From positions 1 through 61,843 of IMG/VR virus record IMGVR_UViG_3300048813_000081: a stretch of DNA of 61,843 nucleotides, one strand, 5' to 3'. Shown here in pieces: positions 2,901 through 54,631 of the stretch (positions within the stretch are counted from its first letter, which is position 1; each line of letters opens with the position of its first letter). The stretch comes from a virus. The notes below the pieces were generated by a model. That model was not told the origin of the DNA, did not search any database, and was given only the letters and a program-made list of their open reading frames with translations. The position numbers and the translations under genes were made by a program.

Positions 2901-2910
2901 TAGCGTTATC

Positions 2911-2927
2911 GTATAGCTGCGCTATAC
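2911..2927 (+). terminator. 7-bp hairpin after scaffold gene
   Basis: GTATAGC-TGC-GCTATAC is a perfect 7-bp stem with a 3-base loop just after the scaffold stop. No U-run follows, so it is either a processing or stability hairpin between scaffold and capsid messages or a weak terminator. Confidence 0.35.
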
Positions 2928-3017
2928 ATTAATACGCGCAATTAAACTGTCATACACGCAGTTATATCCTTTTGCGCGCAAGTATCTCTGAGATAAATTT
3001 AACCTACACACCGAAAA

Positions 3018-3026
3018 TGTGATAAT
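3018..3026 (+). promoter_or_regulatory. Extended -10 element ahead of capsid gene
   Basis: TGTGATAAT is one base from TGnTATAAT and lies in the 192-base gap before the capsid gene. Downstream there is a GAAAC/GTTTC dyad and then a strong ribosome site (AAGAGGT). A separate promoter would allow high capsid expression. Confidence 0.45.
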
Positions 3027-3092
3027 ATTAATCTTGAAACGTAATGTTTCTTAATATTAGGTTTAAAGTTTTTCTCAAGAGGTTTTATTAAT

Positions 3093-4493: not shown

Positions 4494-4510
4494 TCACTAA
4501 GGAGTGAATT

Positions 4511-4750
4511 ATGGCTTCTGAAAAGGCACCGATCGTAAATACCCAGCTCATCTCCAAGAGAATGCCAGAAATGCGTAAGCAAAGAATGGCAAGCCGTGAA
4601 GACGCCCGTCTTCCAGGCGAACGCGGAATTAAGAGCGCTGGTGGTCCCGTGAAAGAAGGTTCTTTCAGAATGAATTCTGAAGTAATGGACCGTATCGTAG
4701 GTTCACGCGAAGTAGCAGACATGACCGTAACACAGGAGCCTAGTTTGTAA
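4511..4750 (+). CDS. Small head-associated protein, unknown
   Basis: This 79-residue, charged, arginine- and methionine-rich protein sits between the capsid gene and a decoration-like gene. A ribosome site (AAGGAG) is correctly spaced. The stop overlaps the next ATG (TAATG). I do not recognise a domain. Given its position it may be a capsid accessory or minor head protein. Confidence 0.5.
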   Translation: MASEKAPIVNTQLISKRMPEMRKQRMASREDARLPGERGIKSAGGPVKEGSFRMNSEVMDRIVGSREVADMTVTQEPSL

Positions 4751-5106
4751 TGAGTAACCCAGTTCAACCAGTATTTGGAACAATAGCACCTCTAGACGTT
4801 CCAGCCGCTGAAGTAGTATCTCAAGTAGCTAGCTTTAACGCAGCTTTACTTTCAACGAACTTTGTCAACACCACAGCTGGCGCTGTAGTTGCAACTCTTC
4901 CAGATGCGACACTTAGCCCAGGTAAGGGTCTTGTAGTTTTCTGTACAGTTCATAGTTCTAACGTAACCTTCGCATGTGTTAATTCGCAAGATATTAACGG
5001 TGCTGCTGGTACAAGTCTTACAGCTTTAAGTGCTGCTAACACGGGCTATGTATTCCTTTCAGATGGTAACAACTGGTTCGCAGCTGCTGGTCTGGCTATT
5101 AAGTAA
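4750..5106 (+). CDS. Capsid decoration-like beta domain protein
   Basis: The 118-residue protein consists almost entirely of one beta domain, running from TLPDATLSPGKGLVVF to GYVFLSDGNNWFAA. The same domain pattern (LPDA, then QxINGAAG, then SDGxNW) recurs at the C terminus of the 420-residue fibre-like protein at 19219-20481. Next to the capsid gene it most likely decorates the head surface. It is translationally coupled to the upstream gene by a one-base overlap. Confidence 0.55.
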   Translation: MSNPVQPVFGTIAPLDVPAAEVVSQVASFNAALLSTNFVNTTAGAVVATLPDATLSPGKGLVVFCTVHSSNVTFACVNSQDINGAAGTSLTALSAANTGYVFLSDGNNWFAAAGLAIK

Positions 5107-5122
5107 CGCCCAGGAGGTGTTT

Positions 5123-5389
5123 ATGAAACCAGGCAAAGTAGTAAAAATCATGGGTCCAGATTGGAACCCAGCTAGTATGAATGTTGGTAAACCTACCCGC
5201 ATGAATTATGGCGAAAAGACTACCACCCCGCAGACTACTGCAGGCGAAAAGCGTATCGAAGATGTGTTTATACCGTATTATGATAGACGTGGGTTTATCA
5301 CTAACAACGCAGCCCGTACAGCAACAGGACAAATGTTTGTTATACCGACCAGCTGTGGCGTTATGGAAGAAAGAGATCTAGGAGCATAG
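5123..5389 (+). CDS. Small conserved-looking head-region protein
   Basis: The ATG at 5123 is chosen because it has a strong AGGAGG ribosome site 6 bases upstream; the longer frame starting at 5030 would overlap the previous gene and lacks one. The 88-residue product is polar, with a central YYDRRGF segment. No domain is recognised. The stop is one base from the next ATG, so it is in the head operon. Confidence 0.55.
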   Translation: MKPGKVVKIMGPDWNPASMNVGKPTRMNYGEKTTTPQTTAGEKRIEDVFIPYYDRRGFITNNAARTATGQMFVIPTSCGVMEERDLGA

Positions 5390-5390
5390 T

Positions 5391-6284
5391 ATGAGTTCAC
5401 CCAGCGCACAAAATCCGTTACTTACACCAAATTTCAGTCAATACAGTTCTGCTGGACTGGTAAGTATTGCTCAAAGCCCAGCTGATGTTTTAGCTGCCAA
5501 CCCCCGGGTTGCTGCCACTGAAACATTGACTTTAAGTACTAATCCTACCAATGCTGACGTTTTGACACTTACTTTATCTAATCCAACCTTACCTAATGGA
5601 TCGCTTGCCGTTTCTTTCACAGCCTCATCTGATACAAATATTACCGCAGCTGCAAAATTAGCAGCTGCACTATCTTTAAGCCCAGTAGCTATGGGTCACA
5701 ATATCGTCGGCACTTCTTTGTCAAATGTTTTGTCGGTACATCAATCAGGTCCAGTTGGAAATTATACGCTAGTTGCGTTTCATTCCACGGGATCTACTAC
5801 AGCTGTTTTAAGCAATCAAGCGTCCAGCTCTGCTGTTGTAGGCGGTTCTGCTACTGAAGCAGATGTAGTTACTTTAGTGTTTACTAATGCAAGTTTCTCA
5901 GGCGGCTACGAAGATGTTGCTTATACAGTTCCAGCTACACCAACTTTAGGTTCAGTAGCGGCAGGTATAAATGCTGCCATTAATGCAGACGTTGTATTAC
6001 AAGCTAATAACATTAGTTCCACAGTTGTAGCTGAAACACTCACAATCAGTCAATCGGGTCCAAATTTCGCTACCTTATCTTATACAAAAGGTAGCAATTC
6101 TGAAACAGTTGTTTTCGCTTCCCTGCAAGGCGTTGCTCAAGGCGGCTCTGGTCCAGTAATACCATGCTTAAATTTCAATTCTTCACAAGGCGTTCAAACG
6201 TTAGTTATGAAAGCTGGCAACCCAGTTCAACTGAATACGCCTACAGTGGCCGATTTAGTCAGAACAGGTAGTCCAGTCATCTAA
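5391..6284 (+). CDS. Head decoration/fibre protein with duplicated beta domain
   Basis: The 297-residue protein contains two tandem copies (about residues 50-140 and 150-240) of a beta domain with the pattern ADVxTLxxxN...T...AAxxxAAxN...SQSGP. Copies of the same type of domain appear in the sheath (residues about 120-230), the neck protein at 6831 and the tail-terminator-like protein at 8497. The last 50 residues (from NFNSSQGVQTLVMKAGNPVQ) may be the capsid anchor. It is probably displayed on the head; the surface domains may bind host or environmental glycans. Confidence 0.5.
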   Translation: MSSPSAQNPLLTPNFSQYSSAGLVSIAQSPADVLAANPRVAATETLTLSTNPTNADVLTLTLSNPTLPNGSLAVSFTASSDTNITAAAKLAAALSLSPVAMGHNIVGTSLSNVLSVHQSGPVGNYTLVAFHSTGSTTAVLSNQASSSAVVGGSATEADVVTLVFTNASFSGGYEDVAYTVPATPTLGSVAAGINAAINADVVLQANNISSTVVAETLTISQSGPNFATLSYTKGSNSETVVFASLQGVAQGGSGPVIPCLNFNSSQGVQTLVMKAGNPVQLNTPTVADLVRTGSPVI

Positions 6285-6761
6285 CTACTGACTTAGAAGT
6301 ATTCGACAAAAATCTATCAATTCTTCATGAGTCATAGCGCCTTTAGCCGTGTTGTATCTTTTAGACACCCACTGCAGATTACTGTATTTATAGGCTAAGT
6401 TGGGATACCTAGAAACTGGTCGAATATGGTCTAGATGTAGATTTACGCCTATCACTAAAGGTTCTTTAGTGTAAGGACAGATAGGCGATGTCTGCAAGTC
6501 CTGATGTAATTGAATAGCCAACGCCCGCATCGCTAGCCGTCCTGGATGGTATTTAACGTTCCCGCGCCGACTGCCGGAGCGTCCATTTAATAGTTGCAAT
6601 ACCCACTCTGGACCTTCTGCCTTTCGATGCTTCAAGAAACATGCTTTAGCGTAGGCGTCGGCGCAATCTTTACAAGAACTCTGTTTCTTATCTTTCGTAT
6701 GACCATGGGCACTAAATCTATCCATTGCCAAACTAAGCTTGCATTTATTGCATATTTTCAT
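6285..6761 (-). CDS. HNH homing endonuclease
   Basis: The N terminus is a zinc ribbon (MKICNKC, then CKDC about 30 residues later) and the C-terminal half carries an HNH core (CPYTKEPL, LHLDHIRPVSRYP, NLQWVSKRYNTAKG). The ATG at 6761 is preferred over an upstream TTG because the MKICxxC start is shared with the HNH protein at 28797-29225. It lies antisense inside the plus-strand head/neck operon, and its stop abuts the stop of the upstream gene, as expected for a mobile insertion. It should nick or cleave an allele lacking the insertion. Confidence 0.85.
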   Translation of the reverse strand: MKICNKCKLSLAMDRFSAHGHTKDKKQSSCKDCADAYAKACFLKHRKAEGPEWVLQLLNGRSGSRRGNVKYHPGRLAMRALAIQLHQDLQTSPICPYTKEPLVIGVNLHLDHIRPVSRYPNLAYKYSNLQWVSKRYNTAKGAMTHEELIDFCRILLSQ

Positions 6762-6830
6762 ATCTGCCAATTATCCCAGACTTTTCAGCGATTTATAACT
6801 TAAAATATACTTATATACTTGGAGATTTAC

Positions 6831-28796: not shown

Positions 28797-28816
28797 TTAT
28801 GATGCGTTTGCATTTT
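28797..28816 (-). repeat. Second copy of spike-gene 3' end
   Basis: The last bases of the HNH gene, AAATGCAAACGCATCAT plus stop, match the spike-gene end at 29222-29241 (AAATGCTAATGCATCAT) at 15 of 17 positions and in the same reading frame. The HNH copy retains the TAAGGAG that serves the downstream gene, so it looks like the original 3' end. Confidence 0.65.
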
Positions 28817-29225
28817 GTTTCTTAATTGCTCTATTATACGTTCTGATTCTATGACAATTAGCACATACTAGTTCGCATTTAGCTAATTCGTTTGCTAATT
28901 TCTCACCCGTATAACCCGTAATAACCGCATTGGAAATTTCAAATCTTTTTATACCTCTAACATGATCGAAATCCATTACACATGAAGGGTAGGTTATACC
29001 GCAATCAATACAAGGTCGGTTTTTCATGTCTTGTAATTTTTTCTTTCGTTTGAACCGTTTAAGCCTTTCATATTCATTAATTTTGATCCGATTCCTGCGG
29101 CGCCATTGCGTATCAAGTTCTTTTTTGCATACTTTACAATAATACAATCGCCCATCCCTACTGCTTGTAGAATAAGTAAATTCAGTGAGCGATTTAGTAA
29201 TATTACATCTAATACAAATTTTCAT
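28797..29225 (-). CDS. HNH homing endonuclease inserted after spike gene
   Basis: The 142-residue protein has a zinc ribbon (MKICIRCNITKSLTEF ... YCKVCKKE), a basic linker, and an HNH core (CIDCGITYP, VMDFDHVRGIKRFE, ELAKCELVCANCHRIRTYNR). Its ATG overlaps the spike stop (ATGA). Its final codons (NANAS) and about 17 bases of DNA repeat the end of the spike gene, which marks the insertion point. It is a free-standing mobile endonuclease; the spike gene end is its likely target. Confidence 0.9.
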   Translation of the reverse strand: MKICIRCNITKSLTEFTYSTSSRDGRLYYCKVCKKELDTQWRRRNRIKINEYERLKRFKRKKKLQDMKNRPCIDCGITYPSCVMDFDHVRGIKRFEISNAVITGYTGEKLANELAKCELVCANCHRIRTYNRAIKKQNANAS

Positions 29226-30295
29226 GATGCATTAGCATTTTTTGCTTCTTGATCGTCTGATACTTGTTGAACCATAGGACCTGATTCTCCAGAACCGGTT
29301 TGTACTCCAGAATGCGTATGTCCTTCCATCCATTGTGCGTACACATCAGTTAATAAGGCTTTCATAGTTCCGGTTCCCAAATTAACCGTATCTGATTTAA
29401 CATTAGTAGTATCTGAAGTAACGTTCACTACACCATCGGGGACGTTTAAGTTATAGGTATTGTTGTTACCGGTTATGTTAATCGTTAGTTCCGAATCGTT
29501 ACTAGCTATGTTTATAATGTAACGTCCATCACCCTGGGCACTATCTGCTGTAATGTTCAGAGTCTTAGCCGCAAGTCCCCGGGTTGTCGATAAAATAGTT
29601 TCATTAGTATTTGCGTTATTAGTCTGACCATCAGTTGCGATATTGTCTATATTCAAGTTAGCATTCACAGTATCCGGCTGGTCACCGTTTTTATTAGAGT
29701 TCGTTCCTACAGCTTGCACTCCTAAATTCATAGTCTGGGTTAAGTCTGATGGAGTTTGATTAGTTTGTACTACTGGAGCAGGATTCGTTAGACTAACTAA
29801 TTCAACTAAATTATCATTACTGAAATACAAGTAAGCACCGGTGCTATGTTTAAAGAGCCATTCGCCAGGAGCTGCCTTAACGTTAGATAAGTCCTGATAA
29901 CCCGTAGGTGGTACATCAACCTGATTAAACATCTGCACCGACTGTATGTACAGTCCACGTTTAGTTCCTAAGACATGTACTAGTACCTGCTCTGACAAAG
30001 GCACATTACCATTCTGACTATTTTTCTGAGCTAGCGGATCTGTGACTGTAGCTTGCCCGAAAGGCAGTAACTGTATACCGAATTGATTACCGGCTACTGG
30101 TGTGCCTAGTGGTATCCAACCGGATTCCATATAAGTAGTGTTGTCGTTAGTCCACGAAGGAATAACAACTTTAATTCTGTTTGTTGTCGGGTCAACGCCT
30201 GAGACTTGCCCTACTAAAGTAAAGACATTAGTGCCTGCAGCTTCACGGGCGTTCTGCAGGGCTAAGTGGTTGAATTCGATAAGGCCATCGATCAT
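29222..30295 (-). CDS. Baseplate spike protein (gpV-like, OB fold)
   Basis: The 357-residue protein has an N-terminal OB-fold-like region (FTLVGQVSGVDPTTNRIKVV, WIPLGTPVAGNQFGIQLLPF, QVLVHVLGTKRGLYIQSV). It continues with a repetitive, N/T-rich beta-helix section (VNVTSDTTNVKSDTVNLGTG). Near the end it carries GHTHSGVQTGSGESGP, a motif seen in spike tips. It would sit under the hub trimer and pierce the outer surface. Its stop is created by the ATGA overlap with the inserted HNH gene. Confidence 0.75.
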   Translation of the reverse strand: MIDGLIEFNHLALQNAREAAGTNVFTLVGQVSGVDPTTNRIKVVIPSWTNDNTTYMESGWIPLGTPVAGNQFGIQLLPFGQATVTDPLAQKNSQNGNVPLSEQVLVHVLGTKRGLYIQSVQMFNQVDVPPTGYQDLSNVKAAPGEWLFKHSTGAYLYFSNDNLVELVSLTNPAPVVQTNQTPSDLTQTMNLGVQAVGTNSNKNGDQPDTVNANLNIDNIATDGQTNNANTNETILSTTRGLAAKTLNITADSAQGDGRYIINIASNDSELTINITGNNNTYNLNVPDGVVNVTSDTTNVKSDTVNLGTGTMKALLTDVYAQWMEGHTHSGVQTGSGESGPMVQQVSDDQEAKNANAS

Positions 30296-32790: not shown

Positions 32791-34086
32791 CTATTTATTT
32801 AATAATGATTTACAGAACTTAACAATACGATTCTGGAGCTTCGGCTTTAAAACATTCAACAGTCGTGTCCCGTCCGGAACCCCCAAGCCAGTACAACAAT
32901 CGTAACCAGTGGTAGCAGAATAGGCACCATTATTACCAGAGGTAACATCAAAAAACACTCCTGGATTTGCATACATTACATCCTTTAAATTACTCACCGG
33001 TTTATCTAGATTACTATTTAATAAAGCATTCAGTCCAGCCATCAATGGTGCTACAGCTGAAGTACCGCCTATTACCGATTGCTGTCCATCGACATCAACT
33101 ATATATCCGCTACTAGGGTCGGCGTTGCCGGCTATGTCGGGGACTTTACGACCGGATGTTGATACGCCGCCGCCGGTAGCACCTTCATTAGATAGCCACT
33201 CAGTCCATACGGTCTCCGATTTACGACTACCATCACTATTAAGAATAAGTTTCGTGCCGCCACAGGCTATCGAATAAGGCGAACTAGCAGGGAAGTCAAC
33301 GTGGTTACCAGTTTCTCCATCACTAGAGCCATTATCACCCGCAGCGACAAATACATTAATACCAGCATCAGTACAACTCTTGATAGCATTATTCATAGCC
33401 TCTTGTGCACCTGAATCCCATTGATCTTCTGGAGCACCCCAGCTATCGGAGATGCAGTTCGGTTTCTTAAAGTATGTAGCTATGTTAGAAATAGCATTAA
33501 TATAGCCATTTGTAGTATTCGGAGCAAATACTATTAGAATCTGCACTCCAGGAGCTACCGCTGCTACAACGCAAATATCTAGGGAGACCTCACCATCGGC
33601 ACCATCTGCTCCATCGGAGACGTTAGCTCCTGTAGAAAAATTATGTTGCCACATGCGTGGGTAGGCTACACCCATCGATTTACAGTAGTTCAAAACGTTA
33701 GTCGGGTTAAATCCACCGCCCAATTCTATAATGGCTACGACTTGATCTTTAATAGCTGCTGTCGGTTTAGGGAAATTATAAGCCTTGGCGACTTGCAAGG
33801 GGGTGAGAGGTGATGCCGAAGGACCGAAAAGACCACGGGTCAGATGATGTGTGGGCCGTTTATACAACCCCTCACCATGCTTATCCGACAAAATACATAG
33901 GATGTGATGACCGAATAGTTTTTTCAGGTGTGTTATGATCCCAGGATTCGAAGCTTCAAACCTGATAACTCTGTGTTCATGAAATAATGCCGCTGTTAGC
34001 TTCTTCATGCGTAGATACTTAACTATATCCAAATGAAAGCCAAGACCTGAATCTGATACGGGGCGTAGGTGGATTGAATATTTCAT
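32791..34086 (-). CDS. Sedolisin/kumamolisin-type serine-carboxyl peptidase (S53)
   Basis: The 431-residue protein has the full S53 catalytic set: Glu166 and Asp170 in DGEVSLDICV, the oxyanion Asp251 in VFVAAGDNGSSDGETG, and nucleophile Ser343 in GGTSAVAPLMAGL. SPLTPLQVAKAYNFP (residues 92-106) is the classic S53 domain start, and FFDVTSG near residue 380 fits the calcium site. The first 85 residues would be a short propeptide (about half the usual length). There is no signal peptide, so it may act in the cytoplasm, after lysis, or in the virion. S53 enzymes are acid proteases in bacteria and fungi; one in a phage accessory region is unusual. Confidence 0.85.
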   Translation of the reverse strand: MKYSIHLRPVSDSGLGFHLDIVKYLRMKKLTAALFHEHRVIRFEASNPGIITHLKKLFGHHILCILSDKHGEGLYKRPTHHLTRGLFGPSASPLTPLQVAKAYNFPKPTAAIKDQVVAIIELGGGFNPTNVLNYCKSMGVAYPRMWQHNFSTGANVSDGADGADGEVSLDICVVAAVAPGVQILIVFAPNTTNGYINAISNIATYFKKPNCISDSWGAPEDQWDSGAQEAMNNAIKSCTDAGINVFVAAGDNGSSDGETGNHVDFPASSPYSIACGGTKLILNSDGSRKSETVWTEWLSNEGATGGGVSTSGRKVPDIAGNADPSSGYIVDVDGQQSVIGGTSAVAPLMAGLNALLNSNLDKPVSNLKDVMYANPGVFFDVTSGNNGAYSATTGYDCCTGLGVPDGTRLLNVLKPKLQNRIVKFCKSLLNK

Positions 34087-34331: not shown

Positions 34332-34763
34332 ATGAGAGTAACTGATTTAGCATGGGCAGCAGGAATTATTGATGGCGAAGGTTGTATACACATTAGCCGT
34401 GTTAAAGCTAGTGTGTGCAATCAAAGACAATCAGATCGCTATTCGCTTATGCTGAAATTAACTATGACACATAAAGAAACTATCGATAAATTTTATACTA
34501 TATTGCCGGGAGCTACGATACAAACAGGACAAAGACCAAACCGCAAACGAACATATACCCTGAATTACAGAATTACAAAAGCAATAGCGGCAATCAGACT
34601 CCTGTTACCCTATTTAGTCACCAAGAAAAAAGAAGCAAAATTAGCATTAAGATATGGCAATGTGCCTGCATGGCCAAGTCGATCTGGTAAGCGTCCTGCA
34701 AGTTTAACTCAATTGCGTCATACTTATTATTTATTAATGCGTAGGTATAAACATGAAAGTTAA
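34332..34763 (+). CDS. LAGLIDADG homing endonuclease
   Basis: The 143-residue protein has one LAGLIDADG-type helix, AWAAGIIDGEGCIHISR, at residues 8-24, followed by the expected beta segments (YSLMLKLTMTHKETIDKFYT, YTLNYRITKAIAAIRLLLPY). With one motif it would act as a homodimer. It overlaps the start of the downstream HDAC-fold gene by 11 bases, and both form a plus-strand island in a minus-strand region. A TTGACT/TAATAT pair lies close upstream. Confidence 0.85.
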   Translation: MRVTDLAWAAGIIDGEGCIHISRVKASVCNQRQSDRYSLMLKLTMTHKETIDKFYTILPGATIQTGQRPNRKRTYTLNYRITKAIAAIRLLLPYLVTKKKEAKLALRYGNVPAWPSRSGKRPASLTQLRHTYYLLMRRYKHES

Positions 34764-38928: not shown

Positions 38929-39786
38929 ATGAGAGCATTAATTCTTCCCGGCGGGGGAGCTAGGGGAATTCTACAAACCGGTATGTACGCTGCTTACCTA
39001 GAACAGTACAAAACGTACGATTTTATATGCGGTACTTCTGTAGGTTCTTTAAATGCGATTTTTATAGCCCAGAATGAAATGTTTAAGATGCTAGAGTTGT
39101 GGAGGCATATTAACAACTGCGATGTATTTACATGGAACCTACTTAACGCATTCGGACCGAAGGGCAGTCTGATGGATATAACGCCTTTAGCTGCTTTAAT
39201 TCACCAAACCTTAGATATCAATAAATTAAAACAATCAGGCAAGCCATTCTACGCCTCTACGACCCGGATTAACCCATTAGCCGCTGTCACTAAGAATATC
39301 TGCAATATGACCCAGGAGGAAGCTGAAAAGTGGGTCTTAGCATCAGCTAGCGCACCCATGGCATTCCCGGTACAAGTAATCAACGGCAAACAGTACTCAG
39401 ATGGTGGATTAACCAGGAATTTCGGCATATCTCATGCTATAGCACTGGGTGCTACTGATATCGTCGTTCTATGCTGTGGTGCTATGAATTCCTCTGATGT
39501 TAAAAACCTATTCGATATGATTAAGTTGCAATTATCTGTGCAGTCCGCAGCACAATTTACCGATGAAACCGAACTGGCTCAAATATTAAATAAATCTCAA
39601 CATACGGTATCGCTGACGGTATACAAGCCAGACAGCATAGATTTGAAACAATTGGACTTTACTGGAGCCAGTAGAAACTATAAGAAATATTACGAACAGG
39701 GTTATAATATTATGAACAAACCAGCTTTACAGTTTCGTAAGGTTGCTCAAACAGGTATGCAACCCCGCTGGCAGGTATTTCATTAA
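38929..39786 (+). CDS. Patatin-like phospholipase
   Basis: The 285-residue protein carries all patatin motifs: LPGGGARG oxyanion loop (residues 7-13), GTSVG with nucleophile Ser37, and YSDGG with Asp158 of the catalytic dyad. Patatins cleave acyl chains from phospholipids. It is fused by a zero-base junction to the portal gene (TAA then ATG), so it is expressed with packaging genes. It might act in lysis, in envelope modification, or in the virion at entry. No signal peptide is present. Confidence 0.85.
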   Translation: MRALILPGGGARGILQTGMYAAYLEQYKTYDFICGTSVGSLNAIFIAQNEMFKMLELWRHINNCDVFTWNLLNAFGPKGSLMDITPLAALIHQTLDINKLKQSGKPFYASTTRINPLAAVTKNICNMTQEEAEKWVLASASAPMAFPVQVINGKQYSDGGLTRNFGISHAIALGATDIVVLCCGAMNSSDVKNLFDMIKLQLSVQSAAQFTDETELAQILNKSQHTVSLTVYKPDSIDLKQLDFTGASRNYKKYYEQGYNIMNKPALQFRKVAQTGMQPRWQVFH

Positions 39787-42475: not shown

Positions 42476-43868
42476 CATCCTAGCCAAAGCCTCTGAACGA
42501 CTCATACCATTCGCAAGACTGGTCTATCCTGGCTTCATAGCACCACCATACTTGCAGAAAATAGCTGAACAGCTAGAAGCCGTTGAACGTGGTGATATAC
42601 GACGATTGATACTTACAGTGCCACCTAGGCATGGGAAGAGCCTGCTGACTTCACAGATATTCCCGGCGCATTTCTTAGGTAGAAATCCACGATTGAAAGT
42701 CATGTTAAGTTCACACACTCAGATGCTAGCTTCTGACTTCGGACGTAACTGTCGTAACTTTATGATGCAGCCGAATTTTAAATTGATATTCCCGAATGTC
42801 TCAGTATCTGATGATAGCTCTGCTAAAAATGCCTTCAGTACTAATCAGGGAGGCGAAGCGTTCTTCATGGGTGTAGGAGGTGCATTACTAGGTCGTGGTG
42901 CTGATTTAGCAATTATTGATGACCCTGTTAAAGATGCTGAACAAGCTGACTCTGAAACATATATTAAGAAACTACGTGACTGGTATCGCGAAACGTTATA
43001 CACAAGGCAAATGTCCGGCGGGCGGATAATTATCATCATGCAACGCTGGAGGGCTAATGATTTGATAGGATGGTTACTAGATCCTAAAGAACAAGAATTA
43101 GTCGAAGACTGGAAAGTTATTAACTTCCCTGCTATAGCTCAAGAGGACGACCCTCTAGGGCGTGAACCAGGCGAAGCGCTCTGGCCGGAGAAATACCCTG
43201 TTGAAGAACTTAATAAAATACGTACAGTCTTAGGTTCCCGTAGTTTCAATGGATTGTACCAACAAAAACCATCACTTACCGAAGGTGCGATATTTAAGCG
43301 TGAATGGTTTCATATTGAACAGGTGGACTATAAGTTACTGCGTGCGCCTAAAATCATGTATCTAGATACAGCACAGAAGGAAGGTCAGGCTAATGATTAC
43401 TCCGCTGCTACTTGGGGCGCTAGATATAAGAATGGTATCGGTGTTTTAGGTGCCACTAAGGGTAAGTTTGACTTTCCTAGACTGATTAAATGGACCGAAG
43501 AATTGTCTTATCGAAATCGTATTAGTGCGATAGTAGTTGAAGATAAATCGTCAGGCACTTCATTGGTACAGTCCCTGAAGAAAACTTCCAAGATACCAGT
43601 AATCGCAATGAAGTTTCAAGGTAATCCTGATAAGGAAGAACGCGCACATGCAGTGACACCGTTGCTGGAGTCCGGGAAGGTAATATTTGATAAGTGGAGT
43701 CCGCAGGATACGCAAGAAGATTTATTTAGTTCGCTGCTGCAGTTCCCTACGGGTAGTCACGATGATGACGTCGACAGTTTAGTAGGACTGCTAACTTACC
43801 TCAGTAGGGCTAACTTAAAAAATGTCGGTAAGGGCACTATTCAGATGCCGAATGTGTGGGATCGTTAG
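42468..43868 (+). CDS. Terminase large subunit
   Basis: The 466-residue protein has a Walker A at residues 52-58 (PPRHGKS), Walker B with DLAIIDDPVKDAEQ, a coupling motif region (GGRIIIIMQRWRANDLIG) and a C-terminal RNase-H-like nuclease (IMYLDTAQKEGQANDYSAAT, IVVEDKSSGTSLVQSL, FPTGSHDDDVDSLVGLLTYL). It pumps DNA into the prohead and cuts it. It ends in a 4-base convergent overlap with the Dam methylase gene. Confidence 0.95.
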   Translation: MIDILAKASERLIPFARLVYPGFIAPPYLQKIAEQLEAVERGDIRRLILTVPPRHGKSLLTSQIFPAHFLGRNPRLKVMLSSHTQMLASDFGRNCRNFMMQPNFKLIFPNVSVSDDSSAKNAFSTNQGGEAFFMGVGGALLGRGADLAIIDDPVKDAEQADSETYIKKLRDWYRETLYTRQMSGGRIIIIMQRWRANDLIGWLLDPKEQELVEDWKVINFPAIAQEDDPLGREPGEALWPEKYPVEELNKIRTVLGSRSFNGLYQQKPSLTEGAIFKREWFHIEQVDYKLLRAPKIMYLDTAQKEGQANDYSAATWGARYKNGIGVLGATKGKFDFPRLIKWTEELSYRNRISAIVVEDKSSGTSLVQSLKKTSKIPVIAMKFQGNPDKEERAHAVTPLLESGKVIFDKWSPQDTQEDLFSSLLQFPTGSHDDDVDSLVGLLTYLSRANLKNVGKGTIQMPNVWDR

Positions 43869-44293
43869 CGAAAAATAACCAGCATCGAAGGAAATGGTGC
43901 GCTATTCTTACTATCGCTAAACTTTAATCGACCTTTGATGAATTCTATATCTATATTTTTCATGTTGTAAATGTACTCATGAAACCACTTAGTGTCAGTT
44001 CTGGCTGGAATTAGCATTACTATCTTAGCGCCGTTAGATTGTTCATCTGATGCCTTAATAACCCAGTCTTTAATTTTAGAATATGGAGGATTGCACCACA
44101 CCCAGCCAGGTGTAGTAATCCAGGATTGCTTAAGTCCATCTTGTTCTTTCGTATAGTAATCATCGCATTTCGTGTTTTCTGTAGTAGCGCATACATCTAA
44201 GGTGAATTTATATTTACGATTATAAAACCGAAAAAAACTATCTGGCGTAGACCACTCATCTGAGTTGCTGCTGAAGAGGGATTTATTTATCAT
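43865..44293 (-). CDS. dam: DNA N6-adenine methyltransferase (phage Dam family)
   Basis: The 142-residue protein matches the compact phage Dam family: SSNSDEWSTPDSFFRFYN at the start, FTLDVCATTENTKC, WVWCNPPYSKIKDWV with the NPPY catalytic motif, IVMLIPARTDTKWFHEY, and a short end. It would methylate adenines, protecting phage DNA from restriction or altering regulation. It overlaps the upstream gene by 4 bases. Confidence 0.85.
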   Translation of the reverse strand: MINKSLFSSNSDEWSTPDSFFRFYNRKYKFTLDVCATTENTKCDDYYTKEQDGLKQSWITTPGWVWCNPPYSKIKDWVIKASDEQSNGAKIVMLIPARTDTKWFHEYIYNMKNIDIEFIKGRLKFSDSKNSAPFPSMLVIFR

Positions 44294-44571
44294 GTCATCT
44301 TATATCCTAAATGAATTTCCTGAGCATCTAATAACCATCCAGGAGTACCGCCGAACTTATATTCTTCGTATTCACTCATACCTAATATGCCCTCTTTGAT
44401 TATCTGCTTAAGTGCATGTTCGGGTATCCCACGGCAGGCGTTGACGCAGGTGACTATGCGTTCTGCATCTGTCCATGATAATCTACGACCTAAAGTTAAT
44501 ATTGGATTTTTATCGCAATCATAAAAACCCTCTTCCCGAAATGTCCACGGTTCTGGTGAGTGATTAACCAC
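44290..44571 (-). CDS. Small phage protein of common early type
   Basis: The start is a GTG with a strong AAGGGGG site. The 93-residue product contains EPWTFREEGFYDCDKNPILT and WTDAERIVTCVNACRGIPEH, a motif frequent in small phage early proteins of unknown role. Its ribosome site lies within the orphan fragment upstream (44564-44683). Confidence 0.6.
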   Translation of the reverse strand: MVNHSPEPWTFREEGFYDCDKNPILTLGRRLSWTDAERIVTCVNACRGIPEHALKQIIKEGILGMSEYEEYKFGGTPGWLLDAQEIHLGYKMT

Positions 44572-44683
44572 GTTTGTACCCCCTTAATTTATTAGCAGCT
44601 AGTAGTGTTAATAAACGACCGAATTCATCCTTCCGAAATAAACCGCCTAGAGGTACGGTGAATGCGCGATTAATTATGAGCAT
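44564..44683 (-). pseudogene. Orphan C-terminal fragment left by GIY-YIG insertion
   Basis: This 39-codon frame (MLIINRAFTVPLGGLF... ending GYKRG) matches the last 33 residues of the 65-residue protein at 45377-45574 at about 18 positions (VPLxxLFxK..FGxLL..L.A.K.R.YKR). The GIY-YIG gene lies exactly between the two copies. The fragment also contains the ribosome site of the next gene. It therefore looks like the original 3' end of the interrupted gene, with the upstream copy supplied by the element. Confidence 0.65.
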
Positions 44684-45380
44684 ATGCTCTCTTGGGTCTA
44701 GAAGCTGCTTCAATTGGATTCCATCCTCTACGAATTCTGTCTCTGCATATTTTATTGGTTACTATATTAAACAATTTTACTAATTGAGTCAAATTATATG
44801 AATTATTATTGTGGTCAAACAATCGTTTACAGTGAGAGTAGCCTTCCTGTTTTCTTTGAATCCAATCTTTAGAGTTGCCTTTAGCGATAGCTGATTTATG
44901 TGCTTGGGATAATTGGCGACCGGTAAATAATTGAGATAGTTGTAGTTTTTGCGTATCGCTCATTTTGCGACCCTTATGAGCTTTAGATATTTTTAATTTA
45001 GATTCTAAGGTATGAGCATATCCTGGACGACCTTTATTTATAAGAGATAATTTACGTTTCGTTTCTTCCGATCGTTTAACACCCCTAGGGCTCCCGGCAG
45101 TAAAACTAATATTAAAATCGATGGTACGATTTAATACGTTATCTAAATACCACTGCTCTCTTGTAATACAGTCTTCAGGTAAGCATTCTTCTAATACTTC
45201 AAATCTGAATTGATCAGCACCGTACTTGTTCCAAGAACGTTGTAATAAAATATTCCAATGTTTATTCGCATTTAAGCTTGCCTTATGTGCTCTCCATCGT
45301 TGTTTTAAATTAGTCGCACTACTGCCTATGTAGCATTTATTATTAACTAAATTTGTAATTTTATAAATACCAGTACTCAT
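44670..45380 (-). CDS. GIY-YIG homing endonuclease with NUMOD3 repeats
   Basis: The 236-residue protein begins GIYKITNLVNNKCYIGSSA (GIY...YIG) with the downstream RWRAHK arginine and FEVLEECLPED glutamate of the catalytic module. The middle has NUMOD3 DNA-binding repeats (GVKRSEETKRKLSLINKGRP, KAHKGRKMSDTQKLQLSQLF, SQAHKSAIAKGN). The last 45 residues (YNLTQLVKLFN...RIRRGWNPIEAA) are shared with the two HNH proteins at 49908 and 51923. The ATG overlaps the upstream stop (ATGA). It is inserted at the 3' end of the 65-residue gene. Confidence 0.9.
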   Translation of the reverse strand: MSTGIYKITNLVNNKCYIGSSATNLKQRWRAHKASLNANKHWNILLQRSWNKYGADQFRFEVLEECLPEDCITREQWYLDNVLNRTIDFNISFTAGSPRGVKRSEETKRKLSLINKGRPGYAHTLESKLKISKAHKGRKMSDTQKLQLSQLFTGRQLSQAHKSAIAKGNSKDWIQRKQEGYSHCKRLFDHNNNSYNLTQLVKLFNIVTNKICRDRIRRGWNPIEAASRPKRAYAHN

Positions 45381-45574
45381 TTTCGTTTATAAGTACGCAT
45401 TTTCAGAGCAACTAACTGGGATAATAGTACACCGAATTGTTGTTTATCAAACAAACTAGTTAGGGGAACAGATATTGCTTTGCCTAGATGATACCATGAT
45501 TGATATAAGCGCCGTGTTTCACGAACCATAAGGCGCATGTCTGATTCCAGGTTTCCACTGTATTTTATTTGCAT
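45377..45574 (-). CDS. Small helical protein, target of GIY-YIG insertion
   Basis: The 65-residue product has a helical N-terminal half (LESDMRLMVRETRRLYQSWY) and ends AISVPLTSLFDKQQFGVLLS...TYKRK. A diverged copy of this end lies downstream of the GIY-YIG gene. No function is recognised. A GAGGT site precedes the ATG. Confidence 0.55.
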   Translation of the reverse strand: MQIKYSGNLESDMRLMVRETRRLYQSWYHLGKAISVPLTSLFDKQQFGVLLSQLVALKMRTYKRK

Positions 45575-45577
45575 GTA

Positions 45578-45799
45578 TTAATACCTCAAGCATACTGGCT
45601 TACAAAAACCATTGATAGCAATTTGCGATAAGTCATATCGTAAATGACAGCCTTTACAAGTGATATATCTAGCTTCATACGATTCATAACAACAGGTTCT
45701 ACTAATGTACTCACCCCATACTAATAACTTGCCACATTCCAAGCATTCGAATGGTTCGAACGATGAAAATGAAACTTGGAGATAATCTGCTATGTCCAT
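45578..45799 (-). CDS. Zinc-ribbon protein
   Basis: The 73-residue protein has ECLECGKLLVWGEY, RTCCYESYEAR and ITCKGCHLRY cysteine pairs, so it probably binds zinc. It sits in the run of small minus-strand genes. No specific function is visible. Confidence 0.5.
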   Translation of the reverse strand: MDIADYLQVSFSSFEPFECLECGKLLVWGEYISRTCCYESYEARYITCKGCHLRYDLSQIAINGFCKPVCLRY

Positions 45800-45800
45800 A

Positions 45801-46046
45801 TTATTCTAGCCCTAGCTCCTTGCGTAATTCGATAATTTTAATTGTCGGTGGTATGTAATGATTATATTCAGTGGCAAGCTCCCGCCAAAGGGATTCGCGT
45901 CTGCGCCCCATTTCAGCAGTGGATTCTGCGTAGACAACAACGTTTTCCACTTCCTGAGCTAGTTGTTTGAAGGCTTCTAGTCCGGCAGCTGTATTAAAGC
46001 CATCTGTGCATTCCTGAGCAGCATCAATAAGTTTCTGTGCTATCAT
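45801..46046 (-). CDS. Unknown 81-residue helical protein
   Basis: Helical throughout (LEAFKQLAQEVENVVVYAES, PTIKIIELRKELGLE) and coupled to the upstream gene by an ATGA overlap. No domain is recognised. Confidence 0.5.
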   Translation of the reverse strand: MIAQKLIDAAQECTDGFNTAAGLEAFKQLAQEVENVVVYAESTAEMGRRRESLWRELATEYNHYIPPTIKIIELRKELGLE

Positions 46047-46345
46047 ACTTCGCTCTCCGCTAAGTCGATCCAGTATTGTGAATAATCACGATCTTGCTTG
46101 CCGTATACAAAGTGCAAACCTTCAATTTCTGCACACGCCAACTCCAAAGCTTTCTTGTAAACATCGATATTCAGCTCTCCTGGTCCTGGAGGATAATTGT
46201 CTAAGTTGTATTGGCAGATTCCGCATAAAGCTTCCTGCCTGTTGACGGCTTGTGAGATTAGGGATTCTAGTTTTTGCATCACTAAGTCATCATCCCAATC
46301 GGAGTCGAATATTAGCTTACGCAATTCCTGTTGAAATGTATTCAT
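46043..46345 (-). CDS. Unknown 100-residue acidic protein
   Basis: Acidic and mainly helical, with one CGIC pair and LACAEIEGLHFVYGKQDRDY near the end. It is in the same translationally coupled run. No domain is recognised. Confidence 0.5.
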   Translation of the reverse strand: MNTFQQELRKLIFDSDWDDDLVMQKLESLISQAVNRQEALCGICQYNLDNYPPGPGELNIDVYKKALELACAEIEGLHFVYGKQDRDYSQYWIDLAESEV

Positions 46346-46364
46346 ATGTTATGGTATTTCATAC

Positions 46365-46655
46365 CTACTCCGGCTCAATGCAAACACGTAACTGTGCTGC
46401 CTTTAAGACATCATGATATGCGCTAACGCGCTCTTTGCTATCTATCCATATTAAGGCAACCTTATGTGCGCGAAGATCATTAAATATAGTTTCCATCTTG
46501 TGTTTGTTAAACGGGAATATCTTCAATAATATAGTTTCAATATCTTCGCGAAACATATCCGATTTAAACAACAACAAATTCCACATCTTCATTTCGTCAG
46601 CATCTGTATCGTTTATCTTATCGATAACTGGGGGGCGATCTAAAACTGCAGGCAT
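46365..46655 (-). CDS. ClpS-like protease adaptor
   Basis: The ATG at 46655 has a GGAGGGG site. After a 25-residue polar start the 96-residue protein follows the ClpS plan: MWNLLLFKSDMFREDIETIL (family Y.VLL.NDD.TPMEFVV..L), FPFNKHKMETIFNDLRAHKV with the conserved His, ALIW, and a final helix-strand (AYHDVLKAAQLRVCIEPE). The NDD ligand triplet that binds the N-degron amino group reads KSD here. Degron binding may therefore be altered, and it could divert or inhibit host ClpAP. The assignment is by pattern. Confidence 0.5.
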   Translation of the reverse strand: MPAVLDRPPVIDKINDTDADEMKMWNLLLFKSDMFREDIETILLKIFPFNKHKMETIFNDLRAHKVALIWIDSKERVSAYHDVLKAAQLRVCIEPE

Positions 46656-46756
46656 CACTTAACCCCTCCGAATAACGCAGTAATTATAAGTAAAAATATT
46701 AGATATCCGACGCCAAAATAAATTAGGCTGCCTATATTAAACAATAACTGTCGCAT
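46655..46756 (-). CDS. 33-residue membrane peptide
   Basis: MRQLLFNIGSLIYFGVGYLI and the following residues form one transmembrane helix. It has a GGAGG site, and its TGA overlaps the ClpS-like ATG. Coupling to a ClpS-like protein suggests shared expression; function is unknown. Confidence 0.4.
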   Translation of the reverse strand: MRQLLFNIGSLIYFGVGYLIFLLIITALFGGVK

Positions 46757-47894: not shown

Positions 47895-49868
47895 TTATTT
47901 AACTCCTTGTAGGACGGTATTTGTATAAGCTTCTGGATTGTTAACATGCAACTTATCTACTGCTGCACGAACTCTAACTGGATCACCAGATTCTAGTTCT
48001 GCCTTGACGGATTTTCTGACTACATTACGGGCGAACTTTTCGGCTTCTTCGTCTGACAACACTTTAGGTGTGCCGTCGTCGTTTTGCATACGACCTGATT
48101 TAGCGAAGGATACCATTGATTCAAATTTATCTGGAACCATAGCTTGAGCTGCTGCTTTCTGCTCATCAGTGCCATTCTCTAGGACTGCAGCTACACGTTT
48201 ACGAATTACACCGGCTGCATAAGCTTCAGGACTGGTGATTTCTGGCTTATTTGCTACGACATAAGCAATGACTTCTTCGATAGTGCCTGATTCGTATACT
48301 GCGTTTACCGCTCCAGACTTACCATTCTTCTTAAGTTCTTCGCGCTTTGCTAATGTTTCGTCAGCCTTCTTAATAGGATTTGGAACATCTTTGCGCTTGG
48401 AGAACATTACTATAAGGTCTTCACGTGAGCCGTTGAAGTATATGTCATCATTAGCTTTCTTCTCAGCTAATTTTTTATCAGCCCAGGCTTCTGGGTTAGC
48501 CCAGCCTTTTTCAGTTGCAAAATTTATGAAGTCTTCTCTAGTTCGTAACATACGATATTTCTCCCGATTTAATATTTTTTGGCAGTGTTCTTTTATTAAC
48601 TGATTGGCACTTTCAATAGTTATACACTGAAGCTGTTCAAATAGCACCTTAAATGATTTTAAATTTTGCTTAAACACTTTCCCGCAAATGGGACAAATCA
48701 TTGCCCGTTTCTTGACATAATTACCACACGTCAAACAGAGTCGTAAGTCAACACCAGCTATAGTATCGCGCTTTGTACGCGTCCCGTAATCATCTAAAGT
48801 CCATGACCTTCGTATCCATGGTGGTCCATGCTGCCCTACATTATTAACATGATCAATTAATATAGCTGGTTCATTATCTTCAGTTGGACGAAGTACACGA
48901 CCTATTTGTTGTAAATATACAATTTTTGATTTAGTAGGGCGCAGGAATATACCGCACTTTGCGCCGGGGAAATTATACCCTTCAGTCAATATATTCGCCG
49001 ACATGACACATTTAATTTGTCCTGTTTTAAACTGCTGCAAAATTGTTCGACGTTCAGTATCAGACAAGCCGCCATCTATACCGGAGGATGGTATGCCGTT
49101 ATCATTAAATAATTGTACGGTTTCGTATACGGATCTAACGTTTGGACAAAATACTAATGTAGGTTTTCCACCGCTTAATGTACGATAATGCTCAATCACA
49201 TCACCAAATATAACCTTTGAGTTGTCATCGAACCATTTATTGATAGCCTTTGGGTTGTAATCACCGCCTATAACATCCCAATCTTGACGATTCTGCTCTA
49301 CCAAAGCTGCTGTTTTGGATGGTATGTATAATTTGGGTTTAGCTAAGTATCCTTGCTGAATTAATATTTCAATAGACGGACCTTCAATTAGAATATCGAA
49401 ATTTTCGCGTAATGGTTTGCGATCAGTCCTGCGTGGCGTGCCACTTAATCCTAATATTTTTGCTTTATTATTAAAACACCTTGCATAACTAGATGCATTA
49501 CTTCGATGGCATTCATCGACGATAACTAGTGAGGGAGTAGGTAAAGTATCTAATTTCTTTCTAGCCAGAGTTTGAACCATGCATACGTATGTGTTTGCAG
49601 AAGGATCGTATGGATACTTGGAAGCTATATAGCTATGGGGTATCTGGGCTTCAGCAAGATAATCGGATACTTGTTGGCATAATTCCCGAATATGCACCGT
49701 AAAAAATACAACTGCTTTCGGATTATGTTTATGCAGTTCTTGAATGAGCGACATTGCAATATGAGATTTACCCGCGCCAGTAGCAAGCTGAAGCAGTACT
49801 CTGTCGTGCGACTTCCAGGCATCACATATTTGCTGAATTAGATTTAATTGATAGTCACGCAATTGCAT
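47895..49868 (-). CDS. SF2 (DEAD/DEAH-type) DNA helicase
   Basis: The ATG at 49868 (MQLRDYQ) is preferred over a GTG 6 codons earlier because family members start at this Q motif. Motifs run in order: LQLATGAGKSHIA (I), LVIVDECHRSN (II), ILGLSGTPRR (III), LVFCPNVRS (IV), ILTEGYNFPG (V) and LQQIGRVLRP (VI). Residues about 370-400 hold a four-cysteine zinc finger (CLTCGNYVKKRAMICPICGK). The remaining 250 residues are helical and acidic, with no motif I recognise. It may remodel origin or recombination DNA. Confidence 0.9.
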   Translation of the reverse strand: MQLRDYQLNLIQQICDAWKSHDRVLLQLATGAGKSHIAMSLIQELHKHNPKAVVFFTVHIRELCQQVSDYLAEAQIPHSYIASKYPYDPSANTYVCMVQTLARKKLDTLPTPSLVIVDECHRSNASSYARCFNNKAKILGLSGTPRRTDRKPLRENFDILIEGPSIEILIQQGYLAKPKLYIPSKTAALVEQNRQDWDVIGGDYNPKAINKWFDDNSKVIFGDVIEHYRTLSGGKPTLVFCPNVRSVYETVQLFNDNGIPSSGIDGGLSDTERRTILQQFKTGQIKCVMSANILTEGYNFPGAKCGIFLRPTKSKIVYLQQIGRVLRPTEDNEPAILIDHVNNVGQHGPPWIRRSWTLDDYGTRTKRDTIAGVDLRLCLTCGNYVKKRAMICPICGKVFKQNLKSFKVLFEQLQCITIESANQLIKEHCQKILNREKYRMLRTREDFINFATEKGWANPEAWADKKLAEKKANDDIYFNGSREDLIVMFSKRKDVPNPIKKADETLAKREELKKNGKSGAVNAVYESGTIEEVIAYVVANKPEITSPEAYAAGVIRKRVAAVLENGTDEQKAAAQAMVPDKFESMVSFAKSGRMQNDDGTPKVLSDEEAEKFARNVVRKSVKAELESGDPVRVRAAVDKLHVNNPEAYTNTVLQGVK

Positions 49869-49907
49869 AGTAATATGATAGGTCACTTGTTTGAATTTGA
49901 ACTAATT

Positions 49908-50393
49908 ATGAGTAAAAATAAACCACATGGTAACCAGCGGCATGGATTAAGTCATCATCCAATACATAGATTATGGGATGGTATTAAGCATCGTTGTAAT
50001 AATTCCGATTCTCAGGATTACCATAACTACGGTGGACGGGGAATTACTGTTTGCGATAAATGGAATAATAGTTTTGAATTATTCTATGAATGGGCAATCA
50101 ATAATGGTTGGCAGACTGGATTGCAGATTGATAGATATCCTGACAACAATGGCAATTATGAACCAAACAACTGTAGATTTGTTACTTCTAAAGAAAACAA
50201 TAACAATAGGAGAAATAATATCAAAATTCAATATGGTGATAATTCATACAGTTTATCTCAATTAGTGAAACATTTTAATTGTGTTAGTTATGGAACCGCG
50301 AAAGAAAGGATTAGAACTTATAACTGGGATACCATCAAAGCTTGTTCTACTCCTGCGGGACAATATGTGCATCGTAATCAGTATATGGAGTAG
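49908..50393 (+). CDS. HNH homing endonuclease (GGRGI type)
   Basis: The 161-residue protein contains HGLSHHPIHRLWDGIKHRCN, YHNYGGRGITVCDKWNN, GLQIDRYPDNNGNYEPNNCR and FVTSKENNNNRRNN, an HNH-superfamily arrangement, and ends with the YSLSQLVKHFN ... RIRTYNWDTIKA DNA-binding module. It is a close paralogue of the 51923 protein. It lies divergently between helicase and small minus-strand genes. Confidence 0.85.
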   Translation: MSKNKPHGNQRHGLSHHPIHRLWDGIKHRCNNSDSQDYHNYGGRGITVCDKWNNSFELFYEWAINNGWQTGLQIDRYPDNNGNYEPNNCRFVTSKENNNNRRNNIKIQYGDNSYSLSQLVKHFNCVSYGTAKERIRTYNWDTIKACSTPAGQYVHRNQYME

Positions 50394-51761: not shown

Positions 51762-51948
51762 TCAGAAAAAACATATGCCTACGGCTGCTGATTTAATTCA
51801 TGACATACATGATATATTGCAAAACTTTGAATCGCGCATAAATAGTTTAGAAGAAAACCAGAAACTGGTTTTTAGTAGTGTGATTGATTTGCAGAATAGA
51901 GTTAGTTTGTTGGAGGGTGAGGATGAGTCGACCACATCAGGGTCCTGA
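51745..51948 (+). CDS. Small coiled-coil protein
   Basis: The product (67 residues from 51745, or 57 from an ATG at 51775) ends in a heptad pattern (DILQNFESRINSLEENQKLV, then VIDLQNRVSLLEGE). Its last codons overlap the start of the inserted HNH gene, so its C terminus (DESTTSGS) may not be original. Confidence 0.45.
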   Translation: MLLPGDQKKHMPTAADLIHDIHDILQNFESRINSLEENQKLVFSSVIDLQNRVSLLEGEDESTTSGS

Positions 51949-52579
51949 TTTAGCAGGACAAACATTCGGTCGATATACCGTTATCGAACGTGCTCATTTG
52001 GATAAATCAAGAGAACGGCACTGGTTATGTAGATGTGAATGCGGTACTATAACGTCCTCACCTTCTACATCATGCCTGAAAAGTGGACAAGCTAAATCCT
52101 GCGGTTGCTTGCACAAAGAAATTGTAGCTGATCAAATGCGTATTCGGGCTAGAACGCATGGATTATCCAAACATCCAATTCATAAATTATGGTTTAAGAT
52201 TAAAGAACGTTGTTATAATCCGAATTGCCAATCATATCCTATTTATGGTGGACGGGGTATTGCTATGTGTCAAGAGTGGTTGGATAATTTCCAAACATTC
52301 TACGATTGGGCTACTAATAATGGCTATAAACGCGGTTTGCAGATTGATCGCTTCCCCGATCAGAGTGGTAATTACGAACCGGGCAACTGTAGATTTGTTA
52401 CCAGCAAGGAGAATAACCGTAATCGGCGGGATAATGTTTATTTAGATTATCAAGGAAAGAGGTATTCTTTACCAGAATTTATAGAACTATTTGGTGCTGT
52501 TAAAGCTGACTGCGCTAGATTACGTATCCGACGTGGATGGAATCCATTACAAGCTTGTTTGGAGCCTAATCGTAGATGA
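51923..52579 (+). CDS. HNH homing endonuclease (GGRGI type) with extra N-terminal domain
   Basis: The ATG at 51923 has a GGGTGAGG site. Residues 1-65 form a zinc-ribbon-like module (FGRYTVIERAHLDKSRERHW, CRCECGT, CGCLHKE). The rest parallels the 49908 protein: HGLSKHPIHKLWFKIKERCY, YPIYGGRGIAMCQEW, GLQIDRFPDQSGNYEPGNCR, FVTSKENNRNRRDN, then YSLPEFIELFG ... RIRRGWNPLQAC. Its stop overlaps the next ATG. It is a free-standing mobile endonuclease inside the nuclease operon. Confidence 0.85.
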   Translation: MSRPHQGPDLAGQTFGRYTVIERAHLDKSRERHWLCRCECGTITSSPSTSCLKSGQAKSCGCLHKEIVADQMRIRARTHGLSKHPIHKLWFKIKERCYNPNCQSYPIYGGRGIAMCQEWLDNFQTFYDWATNNGYKRGLQIDRFPDQSGNYEPGNCRFVTSKENNRNRRDNVYLDYQGKRYSLPEFIELFGAVKADCARLRIRRGWNPLQACLEPNRR

Positions 52580-53924: not shown

Positions 53925-54108
53925 AAGAATAGAAAAATATTTTGATATCCTGTATCCCGATAGCATACTATCACTACGGATGATAGACAATGCTCAAGAA
54001 TTCTTAGCAGCATATCCTTTCTTCGGTCCTACGGTAGATTATCCAGTATACAGTCCTGGTGATGAGGTAGACGGCTCAGGGGAGGCGCTAGGTGTCGGTG
54101 ACAATTAA
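53911..54108 (+). CDS. Unknown acidic protein
   Basis: The start at 53911 follows a GGGGGG stretch (53905 is an alternative). The 65-residue product contains RIEKYFDILYPDSILSLRMI and FLAAYPFFGPTVDYPVYSPG and ends acidic. The following HNH gene overlaps its last codons. Confidence 0.4.
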   Translation: MSDSERIEKYFDILYPDSILSLRMIDNAQEFLAAYPFFGPTVDYPVYSPGDEVDGSGEALGVGDN

Positions 54109-54631
54109 AGGACAAACATATTGTTCCATTAGGACGCAGTTTCCTGATTTCCCTGGATTAACACAGATCCCAGGATATCCTGGTTATTATGCTAAGGAAA
54201 ATGGCGACATCTATGCATCGCGACGTAGTTATATGCCCAAGTTGTTGCACTATTATTTGAGTCCCAAAGGATATCATGTTGTAGATCTTTATAATAATTG
54301 GCAACGCAAAACAGTAACTGTCCATAAACTGATAATGTTAACATTTATAGGATCTAGGCCAGATGGGTTGAATGAAATTAGACATTTGGATGGCAATAAA
54401 GCAAATAATCATTTATCCAATTTGAAGTACGGAACATCCCAAGATAATGCAGACGATAAGAAACTGCATGGAACGTGTTACAAATCATTTGCTAAATGTC
54501 ATCCCGACCGTCCATTAGTAGGGAATGGTTTATGTAACTATTGCTATCAAAAACAATGGGCTTTACAAAACATAGAAAAAGTGAGAGAGTCTAAACGGGC
54601 TTACCAACTGAGGCGGAAACAACTAGCATGA
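54092..54631 (+). CDS. HNH homing endonuclease with NUMOD4 domain
   Basis: The start is a GTG with a GGGGAGG site. The 179-residue protein has a NUMOD4-type segment (IPGYPGYYAKENGDIYASRR), an HNH_3 core (TVTVHKLIMLTFIGSRPDGL, EIRHLDGNKANNHLSNLKYG, TSQDNADDKKLHGT) and a late zinc knuckle (AKCHPDRP ... CNYCYQKQ). Its start overlaps the upstream gene and its stop overlaps the next ATG, so it is fitted exactly into the operon. Confidence 0.9.
   Translation: MSVTIKGQTYCSIRTQFPDFPGLTQIPGYPGYYAKENGDIYASRRSYMPKLLHYYLSPKGYHVVDLYNNWQRKTVTVHKLIMLTFIGSRPDGLNEIRHLDGNKANNHLSNLKYGTSQDNADDKKLHGTCYKSFAKCHPDRPLVGNGLCNYCYQKQWALQNIEKVRESKRAYQLRRKQLA

Follow-up and report, generated by a model that had tools for sequence, protein, structure and literature searches.

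The stretch of DNA analysed here, referred to as the window, is a 61,843-bp IMG/VR virus record. The phage is contractile-tailed, and its genes include those for sheath, baseplate, portal and terminase. In its structural genes it is distantly related to Komagataeibacter phage phiKX1 (portal 27%, capsid 33%). On the minus strand, a complete 65-codon open reading frame (45377..45574) is followed by a gene for a 236-aa homing endonuclease (44670..45380), and this in turn by an orphan copy of the last ~36 codons of the 65-codon gene (44564..44674; INRAFTVPLGGLF...YKRG*), recognised by sequence comparison. Beyond it lie a 93-aa open reading frame (44290..44571, minus strand) and a Dam-like methyltransferase gene (43865..44293, minus strand; Pfam Dam, 6.5e-35). 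The product of the 65-codon gene had no Pfam or PHROG match. Its AlphaFold model comprises two helices (residues 9-28 and 44-64; mean pLDDT 75.6), and a fold search with it returned nothing at E<=0.001.

The homing endonuclease gene (HEG) was identified from its sequence and from matches to PF01541 (GIY-YIG, 2.7e-9), PF07460 (NUMOD3, 3.7e-8) and phrog_314 (5.4e-34). It looks intact, as it retains the GIY..YIG catalytic motif together with Arg and Glu, and it combines the catalytic domain of a GIY-YIG homing endonuclease with DNA-binding modules. The junctions of the locus are all tight, with no non-coding room flanking the HEG. The ATG of the GIY-YIG gene overlaps the TGA of the 65-codon gene (ATGA), and its own stop, TAA (44672-44670), falls inside the orphan homologous codons ATT AAT. 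The 5' part of the orphan is wholly missing, as the in-frame sequence upstream of it is HEG coding sequence. The orphan frame ends with TAA at 44566-44564, where it overlaps the GTG start (44571) of the 93-aa gene. The initial annotation, made from the letters alone, gave this frame 39 codons and held that it retains the ribosome site of the next gene; both statements are correct, the site being AAGGGGG at 44585-44579 on the minus strand.

Duplication of the gene end

The gene-end duplication around the GIY-YIG gene is confirmed. In the 65-codon gene, the stretch that was putatively supplied reaches, at its maximum homologous extent (45377..45484, minus strand), from the codon GGC after ..WYHL to the TGA, and the orphan corresponds to the 3' part of this gene from just after ..WxHL. 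The two C termini had been described as alike at about 18 of 33 residues, and alignment over the last 33-35 residues returned the same count (18/33). The local score of this alignment was 85, compared to a shuffle mean of 21 (sd 3.9), and 0/5000 shuffles were as good. The orphan was also recovered by HMMER within the record (E 1.7e-6). When 153 ORF ends of the window were each compared with the next 1.5 kb, the 65-codon gene was the only genuine gene with an echo of its end; the other high scorers were antisense or overlapping frames, mostly in repeats. Repeats at the protein level were few in an all-frame self-comparison of the window, the main ones being of tail-fibre type, HEG paralogs and the pair formed by the 65-codon gene and the orphan. 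The significant similarity sits exactly at both borders of the intact HEG.

The DNA of the two ends has diverged, as the initial annotation claimed, with 56/99 nucleotides identical. Identities at the three codon positions were 17, 25 and 14 of 33, so that the second position is the most conserved, and dN was 0.53 and dS 1.69 (dN/dS about 0.3). Conservation of the second codon position and the dN/dS ratio indicate that both ends long evolved as working coding sequence, and that neither is a recent copy decaying in place. The supplied end had been called recoded, a word that proved too strong, since this end departs from the orphan in many of its amino acids, as an allele of another phage would (dN 0.53, dS 1.7). 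The divergence between the upstream end and the orphan nearly equals that between the window phage and its sister phage G002, and alleles of different phage origin fit it better than deliberate synonymous recoding does.

An uninterrupted homolog in a sister phage

A sister phage, G002 (IMGVR_UViG_3300037116_000074, 72,375 bp), was reached via capsid alignment. It is syntenic with the window phage over its whole length, with protein identities of roughly 30-72%, and its terminase is split across the record ends. In G002 a 97-aa homolog comes first, then the counterpart of the 65-codon gene (82 codons) and, directly after it, Dam, with no HEG and no second copy. In this one insertion-free relative, therefore, the locus holds a single uninterrupted copy, not two separate genes; there is no endonuclease and no fragment, as in an empty allele. 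Since the G002 copy is single and uninterrupted, the 65-codon gene is normally one continuous gene, and the simplest view of the orphan is that of a leftover gene end, not a normal second gene. The orphan is thus a probable remnant of the interrupted allele. G002, the sole insertion-free relative, is 42% identical for this gene. It also lacks, at this locus, the 93-aa gene (whose homolog lies elsewhere in the G002 genome) and three small upstream genes, which indicates that the locus was altered in ways beyond the HEG.

Comparison of the three gene ends gave 15/30 identical residues for the 65-codon gene and the orphan, 12/30 for the 65-codon gene and G002, and 13/30 for the orphan and G002. 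With G002 as the one relative, the three ends are nearly equidistant and star-like (dN 0.53/0.62/0.65).

Searches for further relatives returned G002 alone. Protein and pattern searches of viral contigs with the 65-aa gene, the 93-aa gene, terminase and helicase gave nothing new except G002, nor did a search of genome contigs with the 65-codon gene family. A scan of genome contigs with the helicase gave distant helicases alone. Among capsid-related and other records, the 65-codon gene was present in G002 alone, and tblastn of this gene against phages gave no credible match.

Elsewhere in the window, a 431-aa protein (32791-34086) has sedolisin-like features by eye and a PHROG protease match (3.6e-6); it is conserved in G002 (61%) and is an unusual protease for a phage. 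A 285-aa patatin-like phospholipase candidate (38929-39786; GGGARG and GTSVG motifs, by eye) adjoins the portal gene, and had no match in the G002 protein comparison table.

An HNH gene at the spike gene and other endonuclease loci

A similar layout was observed at a baseplate spike (gpV-like) gene (29222..30295, minus strand), for which the matches to Phage_base_V and GpV Apex are weak and below Pfam cut-offs. The spike gene has a homolog in G002 that is 62% identical. Its stop is overlapped by the ATG of an HNH-type endonuclease gene (28797..29225, minus strand), with relatives annotated as HNH endonuclease among 344 phage records. The spike protein ends in ..DQEAKNANAS (GAA GCA AAA AAT GCT AAT GCA TCA TGA), and the HNH gene ends in AAG AAA CAA AAT GCA AAC GCA TCA TAA (GGAGAAATACATG), giving a protein end of ..QNANAS*. 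The in-frame tail of the HEG is thus a downstream copy of the spike gene end (CAA AAT GCA AAC GCA TCA TAA; 28797..28817, minus strand), after which comes GGAG, the ribosome site of the gene that follows. The duplication, with NANAS* at both HEG borders (28797-29245), is only about 19 nt long. The 18-mers that precede the two stops agree at 15/18 nt, the best of 11,628 stop-aligned ORF-end pairs in the window. Among the matches listed for the HNH protein, most alignments stop near residue 133 of 142, so the tail QNANAS is probably spike-gene sequence read in frame.

The uninterrupted spike gene of G002 ends in CAA GAA AGT CAG AAT GCA TAT TCA AGT TAA GGAG..ATG (..QNAYSS*). The downstream copy shares CAA/CAG, GCA, TAA and GGAG with this empty site, and the upstream copy has a different stop and is fused to the HEG start. 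Over 21 nt, the downstream copy matches the empty site at 12 positions and the upstream copy at 10, and the stop codon and ribosome site are common to the downstream copy and G002. Judged from this comparison, the downstream copy looks native-like, which is the polarity of the model in the initial annotation. The HNH case is the architecture of the GIY-YIG locus in miniature, with an unrelated nuclease family and in the same genome.

The design was uncommon among the loci sampled. In 21 phage GIY-YIG loci examined for a flanking repeat (L113-L133), a comparable repeat was found in one, L119 (LR745208.1, 371715-380269, reverse complement; region of interest 2818-5514), from an uncultured 485-kb phage. 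There, a GIY-YIG HEG has a 381-aa structural-type gene on its upstream side and, downstream, a 175-aa ORF that matches the C-terminal 169 residues of the 381-aa protein (38%, E 3e-35). It was kept as a candidate only, because the 175-aa ORF is a plausible gene with a start of its own and the domain recurs within the upstream protein; the repeat could be a pair of tandem paralogs. A search for an HEG-free homolog of this locus found none. Three protein-flanked HNH relatives had no gene-end duplication, nor did the window HEGs at 51884 and 54092, which lie between same-strand genes and overlap the stops or starts of their neighbours. Two apparent cases were rejected. The tRNA-Pro genes flanking an HNH HEG in PumpkinSpice are dissimilar, and the repeat at locus L094 (13992-15570) is an HTH-like module whose copies no HEG separates: in a related phage (G010), two genes carry this highly similar C-terminal module about 1.4 kb apart, so that the module was duplicated by a different route.

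The window is rich in HEGs, with about seven in 62 kb that include HNH and LAGLIDADG types; further ones lie at 6285-6770, 34332-34763, 49848-50393, 51884-52579 and 54092-54631, and relatives of the HEG at 6285 occur in several places in G002. The GIY-YIG HEG (44670-44860) and the HNH-type HEGs at 49848-50393 and 51884-52579 are homologous over about 45 C-terminal residues (41-45% identical), which suggests that DNA-binding modules may have been exchanged between nuclease families in one phage.

Origin of the duplicated gene ends

We put the probability that the GIY-YIG unit is a homing element that acts like the WHO elements of yeast and the mORFs of fungi at about two in three. The initial annotation had proposed that the element inserted near the end of the gene and supplied a new C terminus. 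The single copy in G002, the HNH parallel and published precedents support this model; the near-equal distances among the three gene ends would fit either end as the native one. The anatomy includes a full-length host gene directly upstream of the endonuclease gene and a diverged fragment of the host 3' end directly downstream, with the HNH locus as a second case.

The mobile unit would consist of the endonuclease gene and a ready-made 3' end for the targeted gene. By analogy with the known elements, the endonuclease would cut the uninterrupted 65-codon allele near the codons ..WYHL|N.A.., and repair would copy the donor unit, with the 5' part of the gene and the displaced 3' fragment as arms, so installing the supplied end and the HEG. 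The recipient gene would then consist of its 5' part and the supplied 3' end, and would therefore remain complete; that it ends at the endonuclease start is seen at the locus. The old 3' end would persist downstream as a short remnant, seen here bearing the ribosome site of the next gene. Because the halves of the presumed target are split apart, the carrier allele should resist cleavage.

Other origins of the locus were weighed against this one. Tandem duplication may have come first, with a free-standing HEG later entering between copies of the 65-codon gene and taking away the initial half of the second. Each end is slightly nearer to the other than to G002 (15 vs 12-13 of 30 aa), as expected for a duplication after the split of the phages; module duplications that lack an HEG are known in related phages (L094), and free-standing phage HEGs often lie between genes (PMC2988022). 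However, this origin requires the deletion of exactly the 5' half of the second copy, leaving nothing of it from the first stop to the HEG start; the sister phage is single-copy, and the like layout at the HNH HEG is left unexplained. We therefore regard tandem duplication as unlikely, and less likely than a homing element. A somewhat smaller chance is given to the reversed polarity, in which the 65-codon gene is native and untouched, and the HEG and orphan end, perhaps with the 93-aa gene, were imported as a block from a phage with an HEG-interrupted homolog. G002 has neither the HEG nor the 93-aa gene at the locus, the distances would allow either end to be native, and coconversion of flanks around phage HEGs is known (PMC2988022). 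Against it, the native-like copy at the HNH HEG is the downstream one, as in the published fungal cases.

The duplicated end would also be accounted for by a mobile group I intron that splices ..WYHL to the orphan end. GIY-YIG/NUMOD3 endonucleases are often found within group I introns. Rfam gave no match in 43500-46700 at E<=5, be it to an intron or to any other RNA, the HEG has no non-coding space on its flanks, and the upstream gene end is already complete; with no conserved group I or II intron RNA around the HEG, this reading was rejected as highly improbable. Chance likeness of two small frames gains something from the shortness of the alignment (35 residues), yet it is refuted for practical purposes by the shuffles, the in-record HMMER match and the comparison of 153 ORF ends, and the G002 gene resembles both copies.

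For the homing-element reading, the gene-end-replacing trick itself is previously described in yeast and in fungal mitochondria. In the WHO elements, put forward in 2020 as a third structural class, the unit is an HEG with an upstream 3' end, and homing into FBA1 swaps the FBA1 3' end for an enzyme-resistant one while the displaced end persists downstream as the second homology arm (PMC7282813). Like the phage locus, the WHO elements at FBA1 of Torulaspora and Lachancea place the endonuclease gene after a full-length host gene with an element-borne 3' end, have a displaced 3' fragment past the endonuclease and need no splicing. Their proteins differ, being LAGLIDADG intein-like with zinc fingers, and they are clustered and reside in yeast nuclei (PMC7282813), whereas the candidate phage elements are single GIY-YIG and HNH copies that overlap the host gene stop. 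The mORFs of Glomus, Allomyces and Rhizopus share the C-terminal duplication around an endonuclease ORF (one of them GIY-YIG, at atp9) and a hybrid host gene with a foreign 3' end and the native end downstream, and the hybrid genes are expressed (PMC3630166). They differ in residing in fungal mtDNA and in being mostly LAGLIDADG, and their native ends are backed by 91-98% identity to close relatives, unlike the GIY-YIG phage case (PMC3630166). The GIY-YIG element, which has NUMOD3 and neither a LAGLIDADG intein-like domain nor a zinc-finger fusion, is not a member of the WHO family by protein descent.

Known phage HEGs resemble the locus in part, among them one that splits a nucleotide reductase gene, which we take to be nrdA of Aeromonas phage Aeh1. 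That HEG, as cited in PMC10448857, sits within a phage gene with function kept, as at the phage locus, but the two halves act as separate peptides, whereas the gene here is completed by a second 3' end. The Seg (GIY-YIG) and Mob (HNH) enzymes of T4-like phages are likewise intron-less HEGs, the former with a GIY-YIG catalytic domain, and some are expressed from the host operon; their cut sites, in contrast, are hundreds to thousands of bases away from the HEG, and the searched passages of a review of T4 mobile DNA do not mention a duplicated host-gene end (PMC2988022). A literature search of incomplete coverage, which may have passed over a report, gave no example of a gene-end-replacing element in phages.

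Selfish endonucleases must spare the gene they invade, and introns and inteins manage this by splicing. If the homing-element reading is true, the WHO-type structural class would extend to phages, one genome holding two nuclease families of unrelated kinds, and part of the orphan C-terminal fragments and hybrid gene ends beside phage HEGs would be explained. More tentatively, intron-less homing elements of at least the GIY-YIG and HNH families may form a general class in phages. Such elements would invade the 3' ends of genes with cleavage-resistant replacement ends, and the host gene would stay whole with no need of splicing; in phage operons, gene ends may then have been repeatedly swapped between phages by homing.
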